Of a DNA stretch of 42,637 nucleotides, positions 18,264 through 24,057 are shown in pieces (the first letter of the stretch is position 1; each line of letters begins with the position of its first letter). The stretch is taken from positions 1-42,637 of the forward strand of contig JAKSLO010000009.1 of NCBI GenBank assembly GCA_024401185.1. The letters run 5' to 3'. The notes below the pieces were generated by a model. It saw only the letters and a program-made list of their open reading frames with translations, was not told the origin of the DNA and searched no databases. The stretch comes from Bacteroidaceae bacterium (GTDB taxonomy: Bacteria; Bacteroidota; Bacteroidia; Bacteroidales; Bacteroidaceae). The position numbers were made by a program, and so were the translations under genes.

Positions 18264-18660
18264 CTGAACTTTCCCACCCTTGAGTTGTAAGAAAAAAAAC
18301 GAAATACACCCCTTGTACTTGATGCTATGTCTCTTCGAGCCATTGATGCTAAGCCATTGTGATTTTCCTTGTGAGCCCCCTTTGGGATGCTCCCAGAAAA
18401 TCCCAATACCTTAACATCACCCTACCGGGTTAGCATCAATCTCAAGGCGATAAGCCACAAAAACCTTTCATCAGTACACTATTCACTAACTATGCACTAT
18501 TCACTAACTATGCACTATGAACTATGCACTATGAACCATGCAGCATAACGCAAAAAGACGCAGAAGAAAACACCACACTCATTTTCCTAACCAGCATTTG
18601 CTCAACCCAATAGTATTTAGTAACTTTGCACTTGTAAAGAGAAGAAACGCCCCATGACTA
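18264..18660. other. Gene-free region after the AAA-like gene
   Basis: No gene seen. A weak hairpin (TTGGGAT ... ATCCCAA around 18380-18410) may end the upstream transcript. A tandem repeat at 18477-18540 is listed separately. Confidence 0.45.
18477..18540. repeat. Tandem repeat of CACTATTCACTAACTATG type
   Basis: Two exact 18-bp units, CACTATTCACTAACTATG, at 18477-18494 and 18495-18512, then two 14-bp units, CACTATGAACTATG (18513) and CACTATGAACCATG (18527). The reverse complement of ACTATGAACTATG also occupies the first 13 bases of the window, before the RND gene. Confidence 0.75.
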
Positions 18661-18669
18661 TCTGTTGTC

Positions 18670-18735
18670 CTACTGTTCGCCTACTGTTCACCTACTGTTC
18701 GCCTACTGTTCACCTACTGTTCGCCTACTGTTCAC
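18670..18735. repeat. 11-bp tandem repeat CTACTGTTCRC
   Basis: Six perfect 11-bp units alternating CTACTGTTCGC and CTACTGTTCAC, so also three 22-bp double units. An open frame from 18654 runs through it, but it only translates the repeat and is not treated as a gene. Confidence 0.85.
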
Positions 18736-18808
18736 CTACATCCGACCTTTTACACATGATTAATCCAGGTAGCCAATACATAACGCCTAACAAAACAGAG
18801 AACAAGTT

Positions 18809-19005: not shown

Positions 19006-19052
19006 TCTTCTTCGTTTTTTTAAAGCATCTTATCTTTGCAAAAAAGTTCAAA

Positions 19053-19415
19053 ACCCCACGCCGATGCTTTTTTATTATTGTTTTTATTATTTTTTTGCAA
19101 ATAATTTTGTATTATGTTAAAAAAAGCATATATTTGCAAAGCTTGAAGCTACTTATGCGCAGAAGTGGTTGGAAAGTCGCGAGGCAAAGCGGTGCCCGCA
19201 GTCTCCCAGCCAGCATAATGTAGGCAGAAAGCAGACATAATAAGAAAGCGTACTTGACGCTTTGTTCATGGCCCTTGAAACCTAGGAAATTTCAAAATGC
19301 TATCATGAACATTGCAACGAGAGTGCTCACACGTCAAATAGTGTGCCAAGCGAGTTCATGGTATCTGCAGGTGCAGATACTATGTCCTCGTAGCAAACAC
19401 ATATCGGCGTGGGGT
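19053..19415. repeat. 13-bp inverted repeat flanking a promoter
   Basis: ACCCCACGCCGAT at 19053-19065 is the exact reverse complement of ATCGGCGTGGGGT at 19403-19415. Between them lie the promoter 19106-19136 and most of the structured RNA. The right arm is also one side of the terminator at 19407-19492. Confidence 0.75.
19106..19136 (+). promoter_or_regulatory. Bacteroidota-type promoter of the structured RNA
   Basis: TTTG at 19106-19109, 19 nt, then TATATTTG at 19129-19136. Transcription would begin near 19142, at the left edge of the structured RNA. A second TATCTTTG box at 19031-19038 has no good upstream partner. Confidence 0.75.
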
Positions 19416-19499
19416 CTTGAGTTGCTCGTTCCTATAGCATGGGTTTTCCTAGGACCTAGAGGGCGGAACGAGTGGCGAGATAGACCCCACGCTTTTTTT
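19142..19499 (+). ncRNA. Large structured RNA, family not recognised
   Basis: A promoter-to-terminator unit of about 358 nt with no convincing coding frame and many perfect stems. Helices: 19149-19152/19220-19223, 19153-19158/19213-19218 and 19166-19172/19206-19212, stacked as one long arm; AAAGCGT/ACGCTTT at 19245/19257; GTTCATG/CATGAAC at 19264/19304 with TTGAAA/TTTCAA nested inside; CACAC/GTGTG at 19328/19341; a 12-bp stem 19357-19368/19373-19384; and the terminal arm 19407-19417/19482-19492 with CTCGTTCC/GGAACGAG inside. It does not show the conserved motifs of tmRNA, RNase P RNA or SRP RNA. It could be an independent RNA or a leader of the surface-protein operon starting at 19552. Confidence 0.65.
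19407..19499 (+). terminator. Intrinsic terminator closing the structured RNA
   Basis: GCGTGGGGTCT (19407-19417) pairs perfectly over 11 bp with AGACCCCACGC (19482-19492), directly followed by seven T. An inner 8-bp stem lies at 19425-19432/19465-19472. CACGC at the end can instead pair with GCGTG at 19500-19504 around the T run, a smaller alternative hairpin. Confidence 0.75.
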
Positions 19500-19551
19500 G
19501 CGTGTTGCTTCTTTTACTTTGCTATCAAATTAATTATTATACTGTTTAATT

Positions 19552-22500
19552 ATGAAAAGGATTAGATTTTTCTTTCTTTCGGTACTGATGTTGGTGGCAT
19601 CACTACCCATGATGGCGTACGAGGATTGGACGTCAACAAATGCTAAAGATGATGAAACGACGAGTAATGAATGGAATCTGTCTGTAAAAAGTGGACAGTA
19701 TATTGTCTTCGATTACGATGTCTCGGAGTCTTCTGATCTCGAGAGGACGTATTGTTATTTAAGAGCTTACTTTAATGGCAATAGTAGCAGCAATATGATA
19801 TACTATTATAGCAATGCCTATTTGAGCTCCAATACTGTTGTATATAAGAGTTCCACTACTGGAAACTTCAAATTAAAAATTGAGTTCCATTCGGATTCCT
19901 CTTCACGAACTGCTAAAATCACAAATGTGAAGGTGGTTGATGCACTGCCCGACCTGAAGAGTATAAGTGCACCCGATGGTTCTGTGGGTGTGACAACTGT
20001 TCGTAGTTGCTCTTATGTTCTTTGTCCAGAGTACATGAATTGTACCCCTTCTATTCAGTATGTATGGAGCTCTTCCAATACAAGCGTGGCATCCTTCTCC
20101 AGTTCTACATCATCATCGTTAACTGGTAAAGCAAAGGGTAAGACCACCGTTACCGTTAAGGCTACTTACAATGGGAAGACAGTTACCGGTACAGCTAATT
20201 ACAAGGTGGTAGAAACTGAAAAGATTGAACTCAAGGATCGTTATGTAGGTACTTCAGGAGAAAGTAATTATAGTTACCCTGTCAGTAGTTCTGTAACCCC
20301 TTCTGCAGCTTCTTATAATTTCGATTGGAAATCGTCAGATGAGTCTGTTGCAACAATTTATAGCAATGGTTATGTGATAGGCCATAAAGAAGGTAAGGCT
20401 ACTATTACCGCTACAGCAAAAGATGGTTCTGGTGTAAGTGGTAGCTGTGAGGTAACTGTAATTGATGGCTATTCGGTTAATTCTTATCATGGGTATGGTG
20501 ATAAGTCGAATGGTATTGATATAAAATATGTGCAGTCTTCTTCAAGTGATCCATGGGATAAATGGGTGTATTTCAAAAGAAATGGTGAACTGTACTATGA
20601 AATCTCCACTGATTGGATGGATAATTACGAGAACAGCTATACTTATGGTTGTGTAGGTCAGAATGGAAACTTGAAGTATGTATTTAGTTCTGAAGGATAT
20701 ACACAGCTACAATACGGATTACTTTTTGGAGGCTCTCAACTTCCTTCTATGACTGTAACATTGGATGGTGCAACCATTTTTACACCATCTGAAAGTTATA
20801 GCTATGATGGAAATTGCTATCAAAATTATACTTTTGGTGATGGCACAAGTGTATGGAGCACGAATGGCGATCAGAATTGGGTGGTTACACCTGGCAACCA
20901 CGTGTTGGAGTTCTCATTTTCTCATGTCAATTCATCAGACAGAAACTTCGTGTGTCTTAGGAGTCTTTATTTTAGTGGAAAGAGTGTAAAACAGACATGG
21001 GATGAAATTGCTGCGGAGAACAAAGTGGCCATGGAACATATCACGGTTCTGCGTGAAGGTACTCTTGGTGGTGAAGCCTTGAAACTCCACGAAAACTTCA
21101 CGGATTTCACAGGACTTAGCATTACAGGTCCTTTGGATGATTATGATTGGAGAACCCTTCGTGAAATGACCAATTTACGCTGCTTGGACTTGAGTGAAGC
21201 GATAGAGGATGAATATCCCAATATTAGCCTTAGTCAGATCAAGGCTGTAAAGCTGTCAAAGCATGTAGCCGAAATCAATCGTAATCCTTTTGATAATGCT
21301 GGATATTACTATGTACCAGATGAAGTTAAATCGATAAGTGCCCAGCCTTTGAGGAATTCAAATCTTGTATTCTTCATGGATGGTGCAAAGGGTGTTGAGA
21401 AGATTGCAGAACGTGCATTTGAAGGTAGCAATCTTGGTGGTGCATACTCATTGCCTAATCTTAAGTCCGTACCCAGTAGAGCATTTATGGATTGCAAATA
21501 CTTGTCGGACTTGACTTTGGCAAAGGCTACGGAGATAGGTGATTCTGCTTTTGCAAAGAGTGCATCGTTGGTTAGTGTGGATGCCCCTGTTGCTACAAAG
21601 ATTGGTGCATACTCTTTCTATAAAACGAATGTAAAAGAGGCAAAATTTCCTAAAGTGGAGAGTGTGGGAAGATATGCATTTTTTGCTCCAGTGGAGAAAG
21701 TGTCTTTGCCTAATGTCAAGACTCTTGATGTCGGTGCTTTCTCAACGGCACACGAATATCGATATAAGGAATACTCCTGGAGTTCCTGGTACTCAAGCAA
21801 TACAGAACGAAATGCGGCCACGATTGAAGATGTGGACATTTCTTTAATTGAGGAGATTGGTGATAGTGTATTCTATGGCCAGACGAAAATTAAAACATTA
21901 GTAACACCCAAATTGAGATTAGTGGGTGATGATGCTTTTTATTATAATAGTAATTTGAGCTCAATAGATTTGTCTAACGTGACGGCTGTAGGACGCAATG
22001 CATTCTACGATTGTCAACAATTACAAAAGACCAATCTTAAAAAGGCAGTGACCATAGGTGCGCATGCTTTTTACGACAATCAGAGTCTAAAGGACGTAGA
22101 TCTAACAAGTGTTCAAAAGTTGGGCGGATCTGCTTTCAGTTCTTGCAGAAGTTTGCCTTCTGTTAGCATACCGAATGTGAATAACGTACCTTCTGATGCT
22201 TTCTCGGGATGTACGAGCATAACCTCGCTTGATGCACGAAGAGCAACATATTTTGGAAGTAATGCTTTTTCTGGGTGTGGCAAGTTGGAGACTGCTAATC
22301 TCTCAAAGGCGGACACTATCTGTAGCCAAGCATTTTATAATTGTACAAGTCTGAAAGAAATTAATCTGCCCAATTTGACAAATCTTGGTAGCTCTGCTTT
22401 TCAAGGTTGCAAATCAGCCACAAACATAAAGCTTTCTGATAAGCTTACTGTGATTGGTGGTGAGTCATTCTTCGGTTGTACTGCCGCAGAAACATTGACT

Positions 22501-24057
22501 TTGCCTGCATCATTAACCAGGTTGCCAGACAGATGTTTCAACGGTTCCAACAACATCAAGACCATAAATATCAATGCTCCTGCACCTCCTGCAGTAGGTG
22601 AGACTCCTTTTACCATGCAGACATTGTACACCGCTAAGCTGAATGTGCCAGAGTCAAGTATCGCACTCTACCAGGTACATGACTACTGGAAGCATTTCTA
22701 TTACTGGGGCGTGAACCCCGATGTGCTTAAGGACCTCATCTTGGCTTCGAGCATCAACCTCGGAAGTGTACGTATGGATAAGACCCACCTCACCATCAAC
22801 CCTGGTGTGAGTTTGAGTATGAGTGGCACAAGCGCACAGGAGTTCCGTAGCGTGCTGTTCAAGGCCAACGCAACACAGGCTGGTATGTTGCTGAGTGACT
22901 GCTCACGCATCAGTAGCGATCAGACAAGTGCAGAACTCGATATGACGGGTTTGAAGTGGTACTTTATCGCCCTGCCCTTCGACGTGACGGTGAGCGACAT
23001 TACCAACAGCGAGAATGCACAGTTGGCTATCTACAGCTATGATGGCGCTACGCGTGCCAGCAAGAATGCTACAGGCTATAGTTGGAGCCGCATCCGCGAT
23101 GGTAAGCTGACTGCAGGTCAAGGTTATATCATTCAGGCCTCAAAGGCTACCTTGCTGACATTGCCTGCAACATACGAGACTAAGGATGTGCCCTTCCAGC
23201 CCAACGACATTACTACAGCCCTCGCTGCTAATGTGGCAAACAGCGCCGCTCACCAGGGTTGGAATTTTGTGGGTAATCCCTATCCTACGTACTTCGACAT
23301 TGCTAAGCTCGACTTTGCAGCTCCCATCACCGTTTGGAATGGAAGCACTTATGTAGCATACACTACGGCTGATGATGACTATGCTTTGCCTCCAATGACT
23401 CCTTTCTTTGTGCAATGTCCCACTGGCGTGAAGAACTTGAAGTTCCATGCTGAAGGTCGTCAGGTAACTGCCGAGATCACTCGTCCCAGTGAGGTGAAGG
23501 GGCAGTTCTCTTCTGCTAATCGCCGTTATGTGGTTGATTTGACTTTGGCTGGTAATGAGCATAGCGATCGCACACGTGTAGTTGTTAACTCATTGGCTAC
23601 TGATGCTTACGACATGAACTGTGATGCTGCCAAGATGATGAGTATGGATGAGCAGGTACCCCAGCTCTACACTATGCGAAGCGGTGTTGAGTATGCAATC
23701 AACGAAGGTCCTCAAGAGGACGGCATCATCGACCTTGGCTTCCTGGCTCCTGCAGAGGGACAGTACACCATCCGTCTGGGCCGTCATGACGTAAACGTTA
23801 AGTTGATCGACAATCTTACAGGCGAGACCATTGAACTTGGTGCAGAGGGTTACACCTTTAATAGTGTAAAGGGCGAGATTCACGACCGCTTCCAGTTGAT
23901 GATAGAAGAAACAGAGGAAACTGCTATTGCTGGCGTTAATGCAGAGCAAAGTGGCGAGGATGTTTACGACCTTACTGGTAAACGTCTCAGCACTCGTACA
24001 CGTGGCGTGAATATTATTCGTAAGGGTGGCTCTGTAAGCAAGCAACTGAACCGATAA
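19552..24057 (+). CDS. BspA-like leucine-rich-repeat surface protein
   Basis: Large secreted protein of 1501 residues. A signal peptide (MKRIRFFFLSVLMLVASLPMMA, cleavage after Ala22) is followed by a beta-rich domain, two Ig-like Big_2 domains (about 143-225 and 226-305; WSSSNTSVASFSS, WKSSDESVATIYSNG), another beta region, and from about 500 to 1035 many LRR_5 units of BspA type (for example AFMDCKYLSDLTLAKATEIG, AFSGCTSITSLDARRATYFG). The last 450 residues are beta domains ending in a VYDLTGKRLSTRTRGVNII tail. Such proteins bind host or bacterial surfaces. The first two thirds of the gene look visibly more AT-rich than the C-terminal third. It heads a likely four-gene operon and is preceded by the structured RNA. 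Confidence 0.9.
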   Translation: MKRIRFFFLSVLMLVASLPMMAYEDWTSTNAKDDETTSNEWNLSVKSGQYIVFDYDVSESSDLERTYCYLRAYFNGNSSSNMIYYYSNAYLSSNTVVYKSSTTGNFKLKIEFHSDSSSRTAKITNVKVVDALPDLKSISAPDGSVGVTTVRSCSYVLCPEYMNCTPSIQYVWSSSNTSVASFSSSTSSSLTGKAKGKTTVTVKATYNGKTVTGTANYKVVETEKIELKDRYVGTSGESNYSYPVSSSVTPSAASYNFDWKSSDESVATIYSNGYVIGHKEGKATITATAKDGSGVSGSCEVTVIDGYSVNSYHGYGDKSNGIDIKYVQSSSSDPWDKWVYFKRNGELYYEISTDWMDNYENSYTYGCVGQNGNLKYVFSSEGYTQLQYGLLFGGSQLPSMTVTLDGATIFTPSESYSYDGNCYQNYTFGDGTSVWSTNGDQNWVVTPGNHVLEFSFSHVNSSDRNFVCLRSLYFSGKSVKQTWDEIAAENKVAMEHITVLREGTLGGEALKLHENFTDFTGLSITGPLDDYDWRTLREMTNLRCLDLSEAIEDEYPNISLSQIKAVKLSKHVAEINRNPFDNAGYYYVPDEVKSISAQPLRNSNLVFFMDGAKGVEKIAERAFEGSNLGGAYSLPNLKSVPSRAFMDCKYLSDLTLAKATEIGDSAFAKSASLVSVDAPVATKIGAYSFYKTNVKEAKFPKVESVGRYAFFAPVEKVSLPNVKTLDVGAFSTAHEYRYKEYSWSSWYSSNTERNAATIEDVDISLIEEIGDSVFYGQTKIKTLVTPKLRLVGDDAFYYNSNLSSIDLSNVTAVGRNAFYDCQQLQKTNLKKAVTIGAHAFYDNQSLKDVDLTSVQKLGGSAFSSCRSLPSVSIPNVNNVPSDAFSGCTSITSLDARRATYFGSNAFSGCGKLETANLSKADTICSQAFYNCTSLKEINLPNLTNLGSSAFQGCKSATNIKLSDKLTVIGGESFFGCTAAETLTLPASLTRLPDRCFNGSNNIKTININAPAPPAVGETPFTMQTLYTAKLNVPESSIALYQVHDYWKHFYYWGVNPDVLKDLILASSINLGSVRMDKTHLTINPGVSLSMSGTSAQEFRSVLFKANATQAGMLLSDCSRISSDQTSAELDMTGLKWYFIALPFDVTVSDITNSENAQLAIYSYDGATRASKNATGYSWSRIRDGKLTAGQGYIIQASKATLLTLPATYETKDVPFQPNDITTALAANVANSAAHQGWNFVGNPYPTYFDIAKLDFAAPITVWNGSTYVAYTTADDDYALPPMTPFFVQCPTGVKNLKFHAEGRQVTAEITRPSEVKGQFSSANRRYVVDLTLAGNEHSDRTRVVVNSLATDAYDMNCDAAKMMSMDEQVPQLYTMRSGVEYAINEGPQEDGIIDLGFLAPAEGQYTIRLGRHDVNVKLIDNLTGETIELGAEGYTFNSVKGEIHDRFQLMIEETEETAIAGVNAEQSGEDVYDLTGKRLSTRTRGVNIIRKGGSVSKQLNR

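Follow-up and report, generated by a model that had tools for sequence, protein, structure and literature searches.

A large folded RNA upstream of a BspA-type gene represents an apparently undescribed multicopy family in Bacteroidota, with features of a cis-acting leader with a conditional terminator

A folded RNA unit ahead of a BspA-type gene

The window analyzed here is a stretch of 42,637 nucleotides from a Bacteroidaceae bacterium (positions 1 to 42,637 of contig JAKSLO010000009.1, assembly GCA_024401185.1), and every feature located below lies on its + strand. It encodes a 1501-aa BspA-type LRR_5/Big_2 protein (19552..24057), the start of which lies 52 nt past the U-run that closes a predicted terminator and which is the probable regulated gene of the RNA described here. 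A preliminary description of the locus had placed a structured RNA of unrecognized family at 19142..19499, upstream of the BspA operon. Our analysis bears out both the structure and the absence of a known family, whereas the extent appears too short, as the unit probably spans about 19043-19499. We moved its start because a 5' strand (CCCCACGCCGAT, 19054..19065), complementary to the 5' arm of the terminator, sits upstream of the reported start, 15 nt behind a Bacteroidetes-type -7 box of its own (TATCTTTG, 19031..19038), which is the probable promoter of the whole unit and would set the RNA start near 19043. This 5' strand forms a perfect 12-bp helix with 19403-19414 and would thereby compete with the terminator. 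It overlaps by two bases a variable 5' hairpin (19064..19129) with a 10-bp base (AUGCUUUUUU/AAAAAAGCAU), for which an 11th pair was tried and fails. The -7 box previously taken as the promoter (TATATTTG, 19129..19136) does exist and is possibly an internal promoter, but its assignment as the promoter and 5' boundary of the unit is probably wrong, given that the box of many long relatives precedes the 5' strand. Similarly, the stacked 17-bp arm reported at 19149..19223 is present as a 10+7-bp arm in the minimum-free-energy (MFE) fold, but it is not demonstrably conserved: no BLAST match from other genomes covers this 5' part, and none starts 5' of query position 92 (19233).

The conserved core of the element, as delimited by BLAST and the covariance model R1 (see below), is 19238-19499. 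It opens with the P2 hairpin (19246..19262), whose 5-bp register in the window is 61.5% paired in 89 long copies, so that the register in the family is uncertain. The P3 stem (19264-19270/19304-19310; 84.5% paired) then encloses side A, composed of strand A1 (19272..19276), arm A, a GAAA/UUUC hairpin (19277..19293) with a kissing loop at 19281-19287 (CCUAGGA), and strand A3 (19297..19303). These are followed by candidate strand 1 (19311..19342), an alternative upstream partner of strand 2; a hairpin with a 12-bp stem (19357..19384), which had been reported before and recurs in the MFE fold, its length and sequence varying among copies; and strand 2 itself (19403..19432), comprising AUCGGCGUGGGG and the upper 5' arm of the terminator. 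Side B consists of B3 (19434..19440), arm B, a GGU/ACC hairpin (19442..19456) with a kissing loop at 19447-19453 (UCCUAGG), and B1 (19459..19463). The unit ends with strand 3, the 3' arm of the terminator, and a U7 run (19465..19499); the terminator stem GCGUGGGGUC/GACCCCACGC with its seven T, as first reported, was found within 19407-19499.

The fold energy of 19142-19500 beats 100 of 100 dinucleotide shuffles (z = -6.2). The antisense strand is also stable (z = -5.4), as is the case with inverted repeats, and fold energy alone therefore cannot assign the strand. ARAGORN recovered neither a tRNA nor a tmRNA in the whole window, in agreement with the earlier statement that tmRNA features are missing. 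Short tandem-like repeats (CACTATGAACTATG... and CCTACTGTTCGCCTACTGTTCAC...) occupy positions 18478-18540 and 18660-18740, in the gap separating an AAA-ATPase/PDDEXK_9 gene from the RNA.

A multicopy family across Bacteroidota

BLAST searches with the element against 61 genomes (its own and 60 relatives; E value threshold, 0.001) recovered matches in 12 genomes, its own included. Sixteen copies, including that of the window, were aligned to build model R1; the sole match of one genome (L011 of G039) was left out since by eye it lies in a coding stretch. R1 matched at least 75 of 295 genomes of the order and at least 10 of 296 genomes of a phylum sample, the window's own genome being among the 10. 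Among its weaker matches, some of which are included in these tallies, a compact form of 160 to 190 nt turned up. A second model, R2, made from an alignment of 16 compact copies (A2) without the window, matched at least 115 of the 295 order genomes and at least 37 of the 296 phylum-sample genomes. All these tallies are lower bounds, as 6 (R1) or 9 (R2) candidates were scored per genome; a deeper R1 search of ten genomes picked for their strong matches gave 7 to 25 matches each. R2 recovers the window element with an E value of 1.4e-5 for its own genome, and as this model was made without the window, the long and compact forms belong together. The window's genome contains matches at nine places, seven found by R1 and two more by R2 (contigs C10 and C18).

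As an independent check, we used a pattern with 21 fixed bases derived only from the strand 1-2 hairpin and the downstream ACCTCA. In a genome collection of 84,980 species it recovered at least 120 stretches; among the 80 listed, one is from outside Bacteroidota (Nesterenkonia) and another has just "uncultured bacterium" for a title. R2 matched 97 of the first 100 of these stretches and 19 of the remaining 20, Nesterenkonia being among the four without a match. The same pattern found two stretches in viral contigs, one of them with an R2 match. The contig of this viral collection that bears a copy (L398) might be a real phage or a host fragment; blastn searches of phage and plasmid collections with the window element (E value threshold, 0.01) recovered no match in either.

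Relationship to described RNAs

A cmscan search of Rfam 15 (4,227 families, those of 6S RNA, tmRNA, RNase P RNA, SRP RNA, T-box, Flavo-1, and Bacteroidales-1 included) gave no match at the gathering score for the window and none for 15 related loci, which supports the earlier view of an unrecognized family; at relaxed thresholds, only subthreshold matches were obtained, with a best E value of 0.25 for the region. A description of this RNA was likewise not found in the main texts of the open-access literature searched, where fragments of it may sit among thousands of supplementary candidates. Term searches of PMC8632094 and PMC11109978 returned none of the queried Bacteroidetes genus terms, and the portions consulted of PMC2864571, PMC8040213, PMC9723704, and PMC7366714 contain nothing describing it.

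The part of PMC2864571 that tabulates RNAs lists Flavo-1, Bacteroidales-1, Bacteroides-1, Bacteroid-trp, and 6S-Flavo with Rfam numbers. Like the present element, these are structured RNAs of Bacteroidetes, but unlike it they are represented in Rfam, in which nothing matched the element. Bacteroides-2 and the GUCCY-hairpin stand in the same table without an Rfam number and so fall outside the Rfam comparison. In the portions consulted, PMC9723704 describes conserved structured small RNAs (sRNAs) of Flavobacterium psychrophilum, such as Rfp18, along with 64 structured 5' regions, and PMC8040213 describes HMP2 candidates (e.g., HMP2_4205). These too are Bacteroidetes structured RNAs or terminator-like palindromes, but the architecture of the element is absent from the accompanying descriptions of the Rfp sRNAs and HMP2 candidates that were compared with it (by description, not by sequence). 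The family of large folded RNAs, with many copies across Bacteroidota, is apparently undescribed.

A kissing core supported by covariation

Covariation was evaluated separately in the compact form (101 sequences; alignment A4) and the long form (alignment A6; 90 sequences, 89 of them distinct, with the window copy among them), both alignments being fitted to models whose structure contains some of the tested pairs. In the compact form, 95.5% of the cells of the structure are paired, against 72.9% with partners shuffled, and the covariation measure is 0.624 against 0.189; none of 500 shuffles is as high, and the signal collapses when columns are slid by one. On one measure, that of further pair types, 51 of the 500 shuffles do as well. 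For the window-derived structure in the long form, the corresponding values are 83.5% against 72.2% paired and 0.436 against 0.226, again with 0 of 500 shuffles as high. Homologs of the window element thus not only exist, but also display extensive compensatory base changes.

We complemented these counts with a register-independent swap test, in which RNAduplex energies of each copy's own partners are compared with those of partners exchanged among copies (2,000 permutations). Because the copies are related, the resulting z values should not be read as probabilities, and we rely on control pairings with other partners and on slid columns as safeguards. The strongest signals center on the two arms. 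The 7-bp kissing helix between the loops of A and B is 99.7 to 100% paired (for the window's pairs, 99.8% at six and 100% at one), with every one of its 7 pairs showing compensatory change in each form (two-sided in the long form), and its swap z is -23.6 in the compact (n = 101) and -18.7 in the long (n = 90) form. The corresponding values are -40.7 and -35.8 for A1:B1 (98.7% paired in 89 copies, with two-sided changes at 5 of 5 pairs), -34.3 and -27.8 for A3:B3, and -10.7 and -12.4 for P3. For all of these, as well as for strands 1:2 and 2:3 (see below), none of the 2,000 permutations was as low in either form, whereas the negative controls in the compact form gave z values of -1.5 (1:3), -1.4 (A1:B3), -1.9 (A3:B1), and +0.4 (kissing loop A with B1). 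In the long form, the fixed columns are weak at P2, at A3:B3 (51.0% and 58.7%), and at a single terminator edge pair (31.5%). We put the weakness of P2 and A3:B3 down to register shifts that fixed columns miss, and the support for A3:B3 rests on the swap test because its fixed-column count is weak. Of the local arms, B (GGY/RCC) is 99.6% paired, with C-G, U-G, or U-A as its third pair, and A (GAAA/UUUC) is less uniform at 85.5%. The kissing core is flanked by highly conserved letters, GAAA..UUUC on side A and GG..RCC on side B.

A predicted terminator with contested arms

Strands 2 and 3 covary (z = -16.9 in 101 compact and -9.9 in 90 long copies), and in the long form the lower stem of the hairpin is 90.6% paired over 8 pairs and the upper stem 95.5% over 9 pairs, the edge pair at 31.5% being a pair of the window at the margin of the lower stem. 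The covarying stem is followed by a U-run, and we regard the two together as a predicted intrinsic terminator. Strand 2, however, has partners upstream as well as downstream, and the shared strands imply that these pairings are mutually exclusive. Strand 1 pairs with it in both forms (z = -10.8 in compact and -12.2 in long copies, with a strand 3 control of +1.0 in the latter), the window copy being better than average (-24.9 against a mean of -21.6). In the long form, the 5' leader does so as well (z = -5.6 with n = 90 and -5.0 with n = 89; strand 3 control, +2.4). The covariation thus points to an upstream partner of the terminator arm that would exclude the terminator.

Constrained folds of the window RNA from 19043 have energies of -163.3 kcal/mol with the A:B set, -163.8 kcal/mol with the terminator and P3, and -168.1 kcal/mol with the 5' strand and P3, the last being the free minimum. 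The terminated fold lies above the fold with strand 3 open by a median of 12.7 kcal/mol in the long form (n = 90) and 12.4 kcal/mol in the compact form (n = 101) and by 2.5 kcal/mol in the window, a gap that is biased against the terminator since nested-energy models cannot combine the A:B pseudoknot with it. In these models termination may be rare or in need of help; at most, the gap says that the predicted read-through folds are stable. A candidate closing helix, with the A-rich 5' flank on one side and the U-run plus AUGUC on the other, was convincing by eye but gave a swap z of -0.2; over 40-nt flanks, the z was -2.2 with 33 of 2,000 permutations as low, and the helix was dropped.

The sequence TAnnTTTG, which we take to be the Bacteroidetes -7 box, is found ahead of 75 of the 89 long copies, where shuffles average 11.9, and ahead of 76 of 100 compact copies, where they average 12.9. 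In 51 of the 89 long copies, the box lies 5' of the predicted partner strand of the terminator's 5' arm, at a median gap of 11 nt. No ATG or reading frame of a leader peptide is kept by eye among the copies inspected, and a short open reading frame (ORF) noticed in some copies (AUGGAAAAGGCG...) is, by eye, not kept in others.

Pairing beyond the U-run

In many copies, a small hairpin with a G-rich loop is visible by eye between the U-run and the start codon. Strand 3 covaries with the region past the U-run in both sets (z = -8.2 in 101 compact and -8.1 in 90 long copies), whereas strand 2 controls against the same region gave +1.2 and +1.1, respectively. Examples are AAAGUCCC with GGGACUUU (L299), AGUCCA with UGGACU (L310), and AGUUCCA with UGGAACU (L173). 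The pairing is not universal, as a copy's own pairing is below the swapped median in 68 of 101 compact and 67 of 90 long copies. The window copy is worse than average in this respect (-7.4 against a mean of -8.4) and seems to have lost the partner beyond the U-run. No support was obtained (z = -1.3 to +0.6) for pairing between the postterminator region and any of the kissing loops, A1, B1, or strand 1.

Diverse genes downstream

An ORF of at least 60 aa starts within 250 nt downstream in 160 of 185 loci, at a median distance of 63 nt; some of the 25 loci without one run into contig ends. When the requirement was a same-strand ORF of 100 aa or more beginning no further than 130 nt downstream, 120 of 176 loci qualified, compared with 12 of 174 divergent upstream controls, 15 of 176 on the antisense strand, and 47 of 136 on the sense strand 1,500 nt further on. 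This distribution would place the element in the 5' leader of a same-strand gene.

Among the 160 downstream proteins, some of which may not be the true gene as the ORFs were chosen by rule, single-linkage clustering (E value, 0.001) gave 117 clusters, 101 of them single and the largest with 15 members. In the 118 of the 160 ORFs searched against Pfam and PADLOC (mainly short ORFs and those cut by locus ends were left out), the commonest domains are the BspA-type LRR_5 (6 proteins) and the Por secretion tail (4 proteins). We judged diversity on the clusters, since the count of 116 Pfam families is inflated by overlapping models (many of them WD40). The diversity of these genes indicates that the RNA is tied to a position and not to one gene family. 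A crude signal-peptide rule was satisfied by 52 of 80 proteins downstream of compact copies, 33 of 76 downstream of long copies, and 1 of 4 further proteins of the window's genome. An association with defense genes was considered: 37 PADLOC models match among the 118 proteins, but the best 25 have only one or two members each, and several of the models name the same protein type; with so few members, the idea was dropped.

Interpretation as a leader with a conditional terminator

We consider it probable, if by no means assured, that the element, as the window's representative of a multicopy Bacteroidota family, acts in cis as a leader RNA with a conditional terminator. Riboswitch and attenuator leaders contain a mutually exclusive antiterminator and terminator. 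The element resembles them in its promoter box, folded domain, and same-strand downstream gene and in having one strand common to an upstream partner and the terminator; it differs from them in the absence of an Rfam match, its kissing two-arm core, its downstream genes without a common family, and the second partner of the terminator 3' arm past the U-run. T-box leaders are likewise long leaders with a competing antiterminator, but for the element there is no gathering-score match to an Rfam family, and the 25 Pfam families listed for the downstream proteins include no tRNA synthetase. A riboswitch-like attenuator is the best reading of its nature. Of the two options left open in the preliminary description, a complex leader fits better than a trans-acting RNA, with a close same-strand gene 3' of most loci and a terminator 3' arm that covaries with the mRNA beyond it.

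The leader would work as follows. RNA polymerase would start at the -7 box and make the large folded domain, in which hairpins A and B would kiss through 7 bp and be held by the long-range helices A1:B1 and A3:B3. If strand 2 paired upstream, with the 5' strand in the long form or with strand 1 in both forms, the terminator would stay open and transcription would read through; if strand 2 paired with strand 3 instead, transcription would end at the U-run. After read-through, strand 3 would, in many relatives, pair with the small hairpin before the start codon and could in this way couple the same switch to translation. The analysis itself establishes the family and its taxonomic spread, the covarying pairings with their shared strands, and the location ahead of genes; transcription of the element, the use of the alternative pairings, and their setting by a signal (a ligand, a protein, or a factor) are what we infer. 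As to the sensor, the kissing core formed by A and B is the leading candidate. Against a conditional terminator stand the diversity of the downstream genes, which is unusual for a metabolite riboswitch; the energy gap disfavoring the terminated fold; the apparent loss, in the window copy, of the partner past the U-run; and the lack of an ORF at 25 of 185 loci, places where the RNA could stand alone.

More tentatively, and with rather more doubt than conviction, we propose that the family is an undescribed class of Bacteroidota regulatory RNA with many copies per genome. Its kissing-loop core would read a common cellular signal or a dedicated factor, and its single terminator, for whose arms upstream strands and the mRNA past the U-run compete, would govern transcription as well as translation of variable accessory genes, among them surface, secreted, and some defense-like ones. 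If this is true, Bacteroidota, a major phylum whose members live in the gut, rumen, soil, and sea, carry an unrecognized global RNA control before diverse and often secreted or accessory genes, and the identity of the signal would show when such proteins get switched on. With covariation of this strength, probing and reporter experiments could be designed straight away, and structural studies of RNA would find a promising target in the kissing, strand-exchange fold.

The special case of the conditional terminator in which the kissing core is an aptamer for a signaling compound common to many genes, i.e., a strict small-molecule riboswitch, seems rather unlikely to us. The highly conserved letters adjoining the core, competing strands that resemble an expression platform, and the 7 to 25 matches in each of the ten chosen genomes all speak for it; however, the shared pathway expected of genes under a metabolite riboswitch is not seen among 117 clusters of 160 proteins (101 of them single) with the top Pfam family in 6 of 118, and a global messenger would be required to account for such a set.

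Somewhat less probable still is a stand-alone, trans-acting RNA that is structured, has a promoter and a terminator of its own, and lies upstream of genes by chance, its alternative pairings serving folding or a protein partner. Such an RNA would account for the promoter-like boxes (75 of 89 long and 76 of 100 compact copies have one upstream), the covarying terminator, the long and elaborate fold, and the 25 of 185 loci without a 60-aa ORF within 250 nt, and the F. psychrophilum sRNAs such as Rfp18 provide a precedent, to judge from the portion of PMC9723704 consulted. It sits poorly with the excess of close same-strand genes (120 of 176 loci; controls, 12 of 174), with the many divergent copies per genome, and with the covariation of strand 3 past the U-run in two sets of copies, as a terminated RNA would not contain that sequence.

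Apparent selection on the RNA and the position of copies on contigs

One pair between strands 1 and 2 is U-G in 93 of 101 compact sequences. As this pair would mismatch on DNA or on the opposite strand, selection seems to act on the RNA of the window's + strand. Of 138 copies with contig-end information (117 + 21, none of the latter within 2 kb), 13 lie within 500 nt of a contig end against about 3.1 expected and 25 within 2 kb against about 12.0, and assemblies could have been broken by several similar copies per genome or at variable junctions. A DNA-level recombination or mobile-element site folding as single-stranded DNA, for which such an excess would be expected from repeats or variable junctions, is highly improbable, since a folded DNA site should have no preference for G-T and the U-G pair, the upstream -7 boxes, and the same-strand gene relation all point to RNA, the first of them indirectly, and several similar copies per genome also explain the contig ends.

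Besides the two forms described above, a third variant of about 230 nt (CCAAGAAGGCGUUCCACGCUUU...), which includes a large G+C-rich hairpin, is present in the window's genome on contigs C2, C153, and C68 (L175, L176, and L178); the ORF downstream of the L175 copy opens with a signal-peptide-like stretch. Four loci (L308, L341, L342, and L392) have two R2 matches each within a few kilobases, in the same or opposite orientation. At L374 (1878-2276, - strand), two copies stand in tandem with 50 nt between them, and in the downstream copy the side B kissing partner is by eye mismatched to side A, as if decaying.
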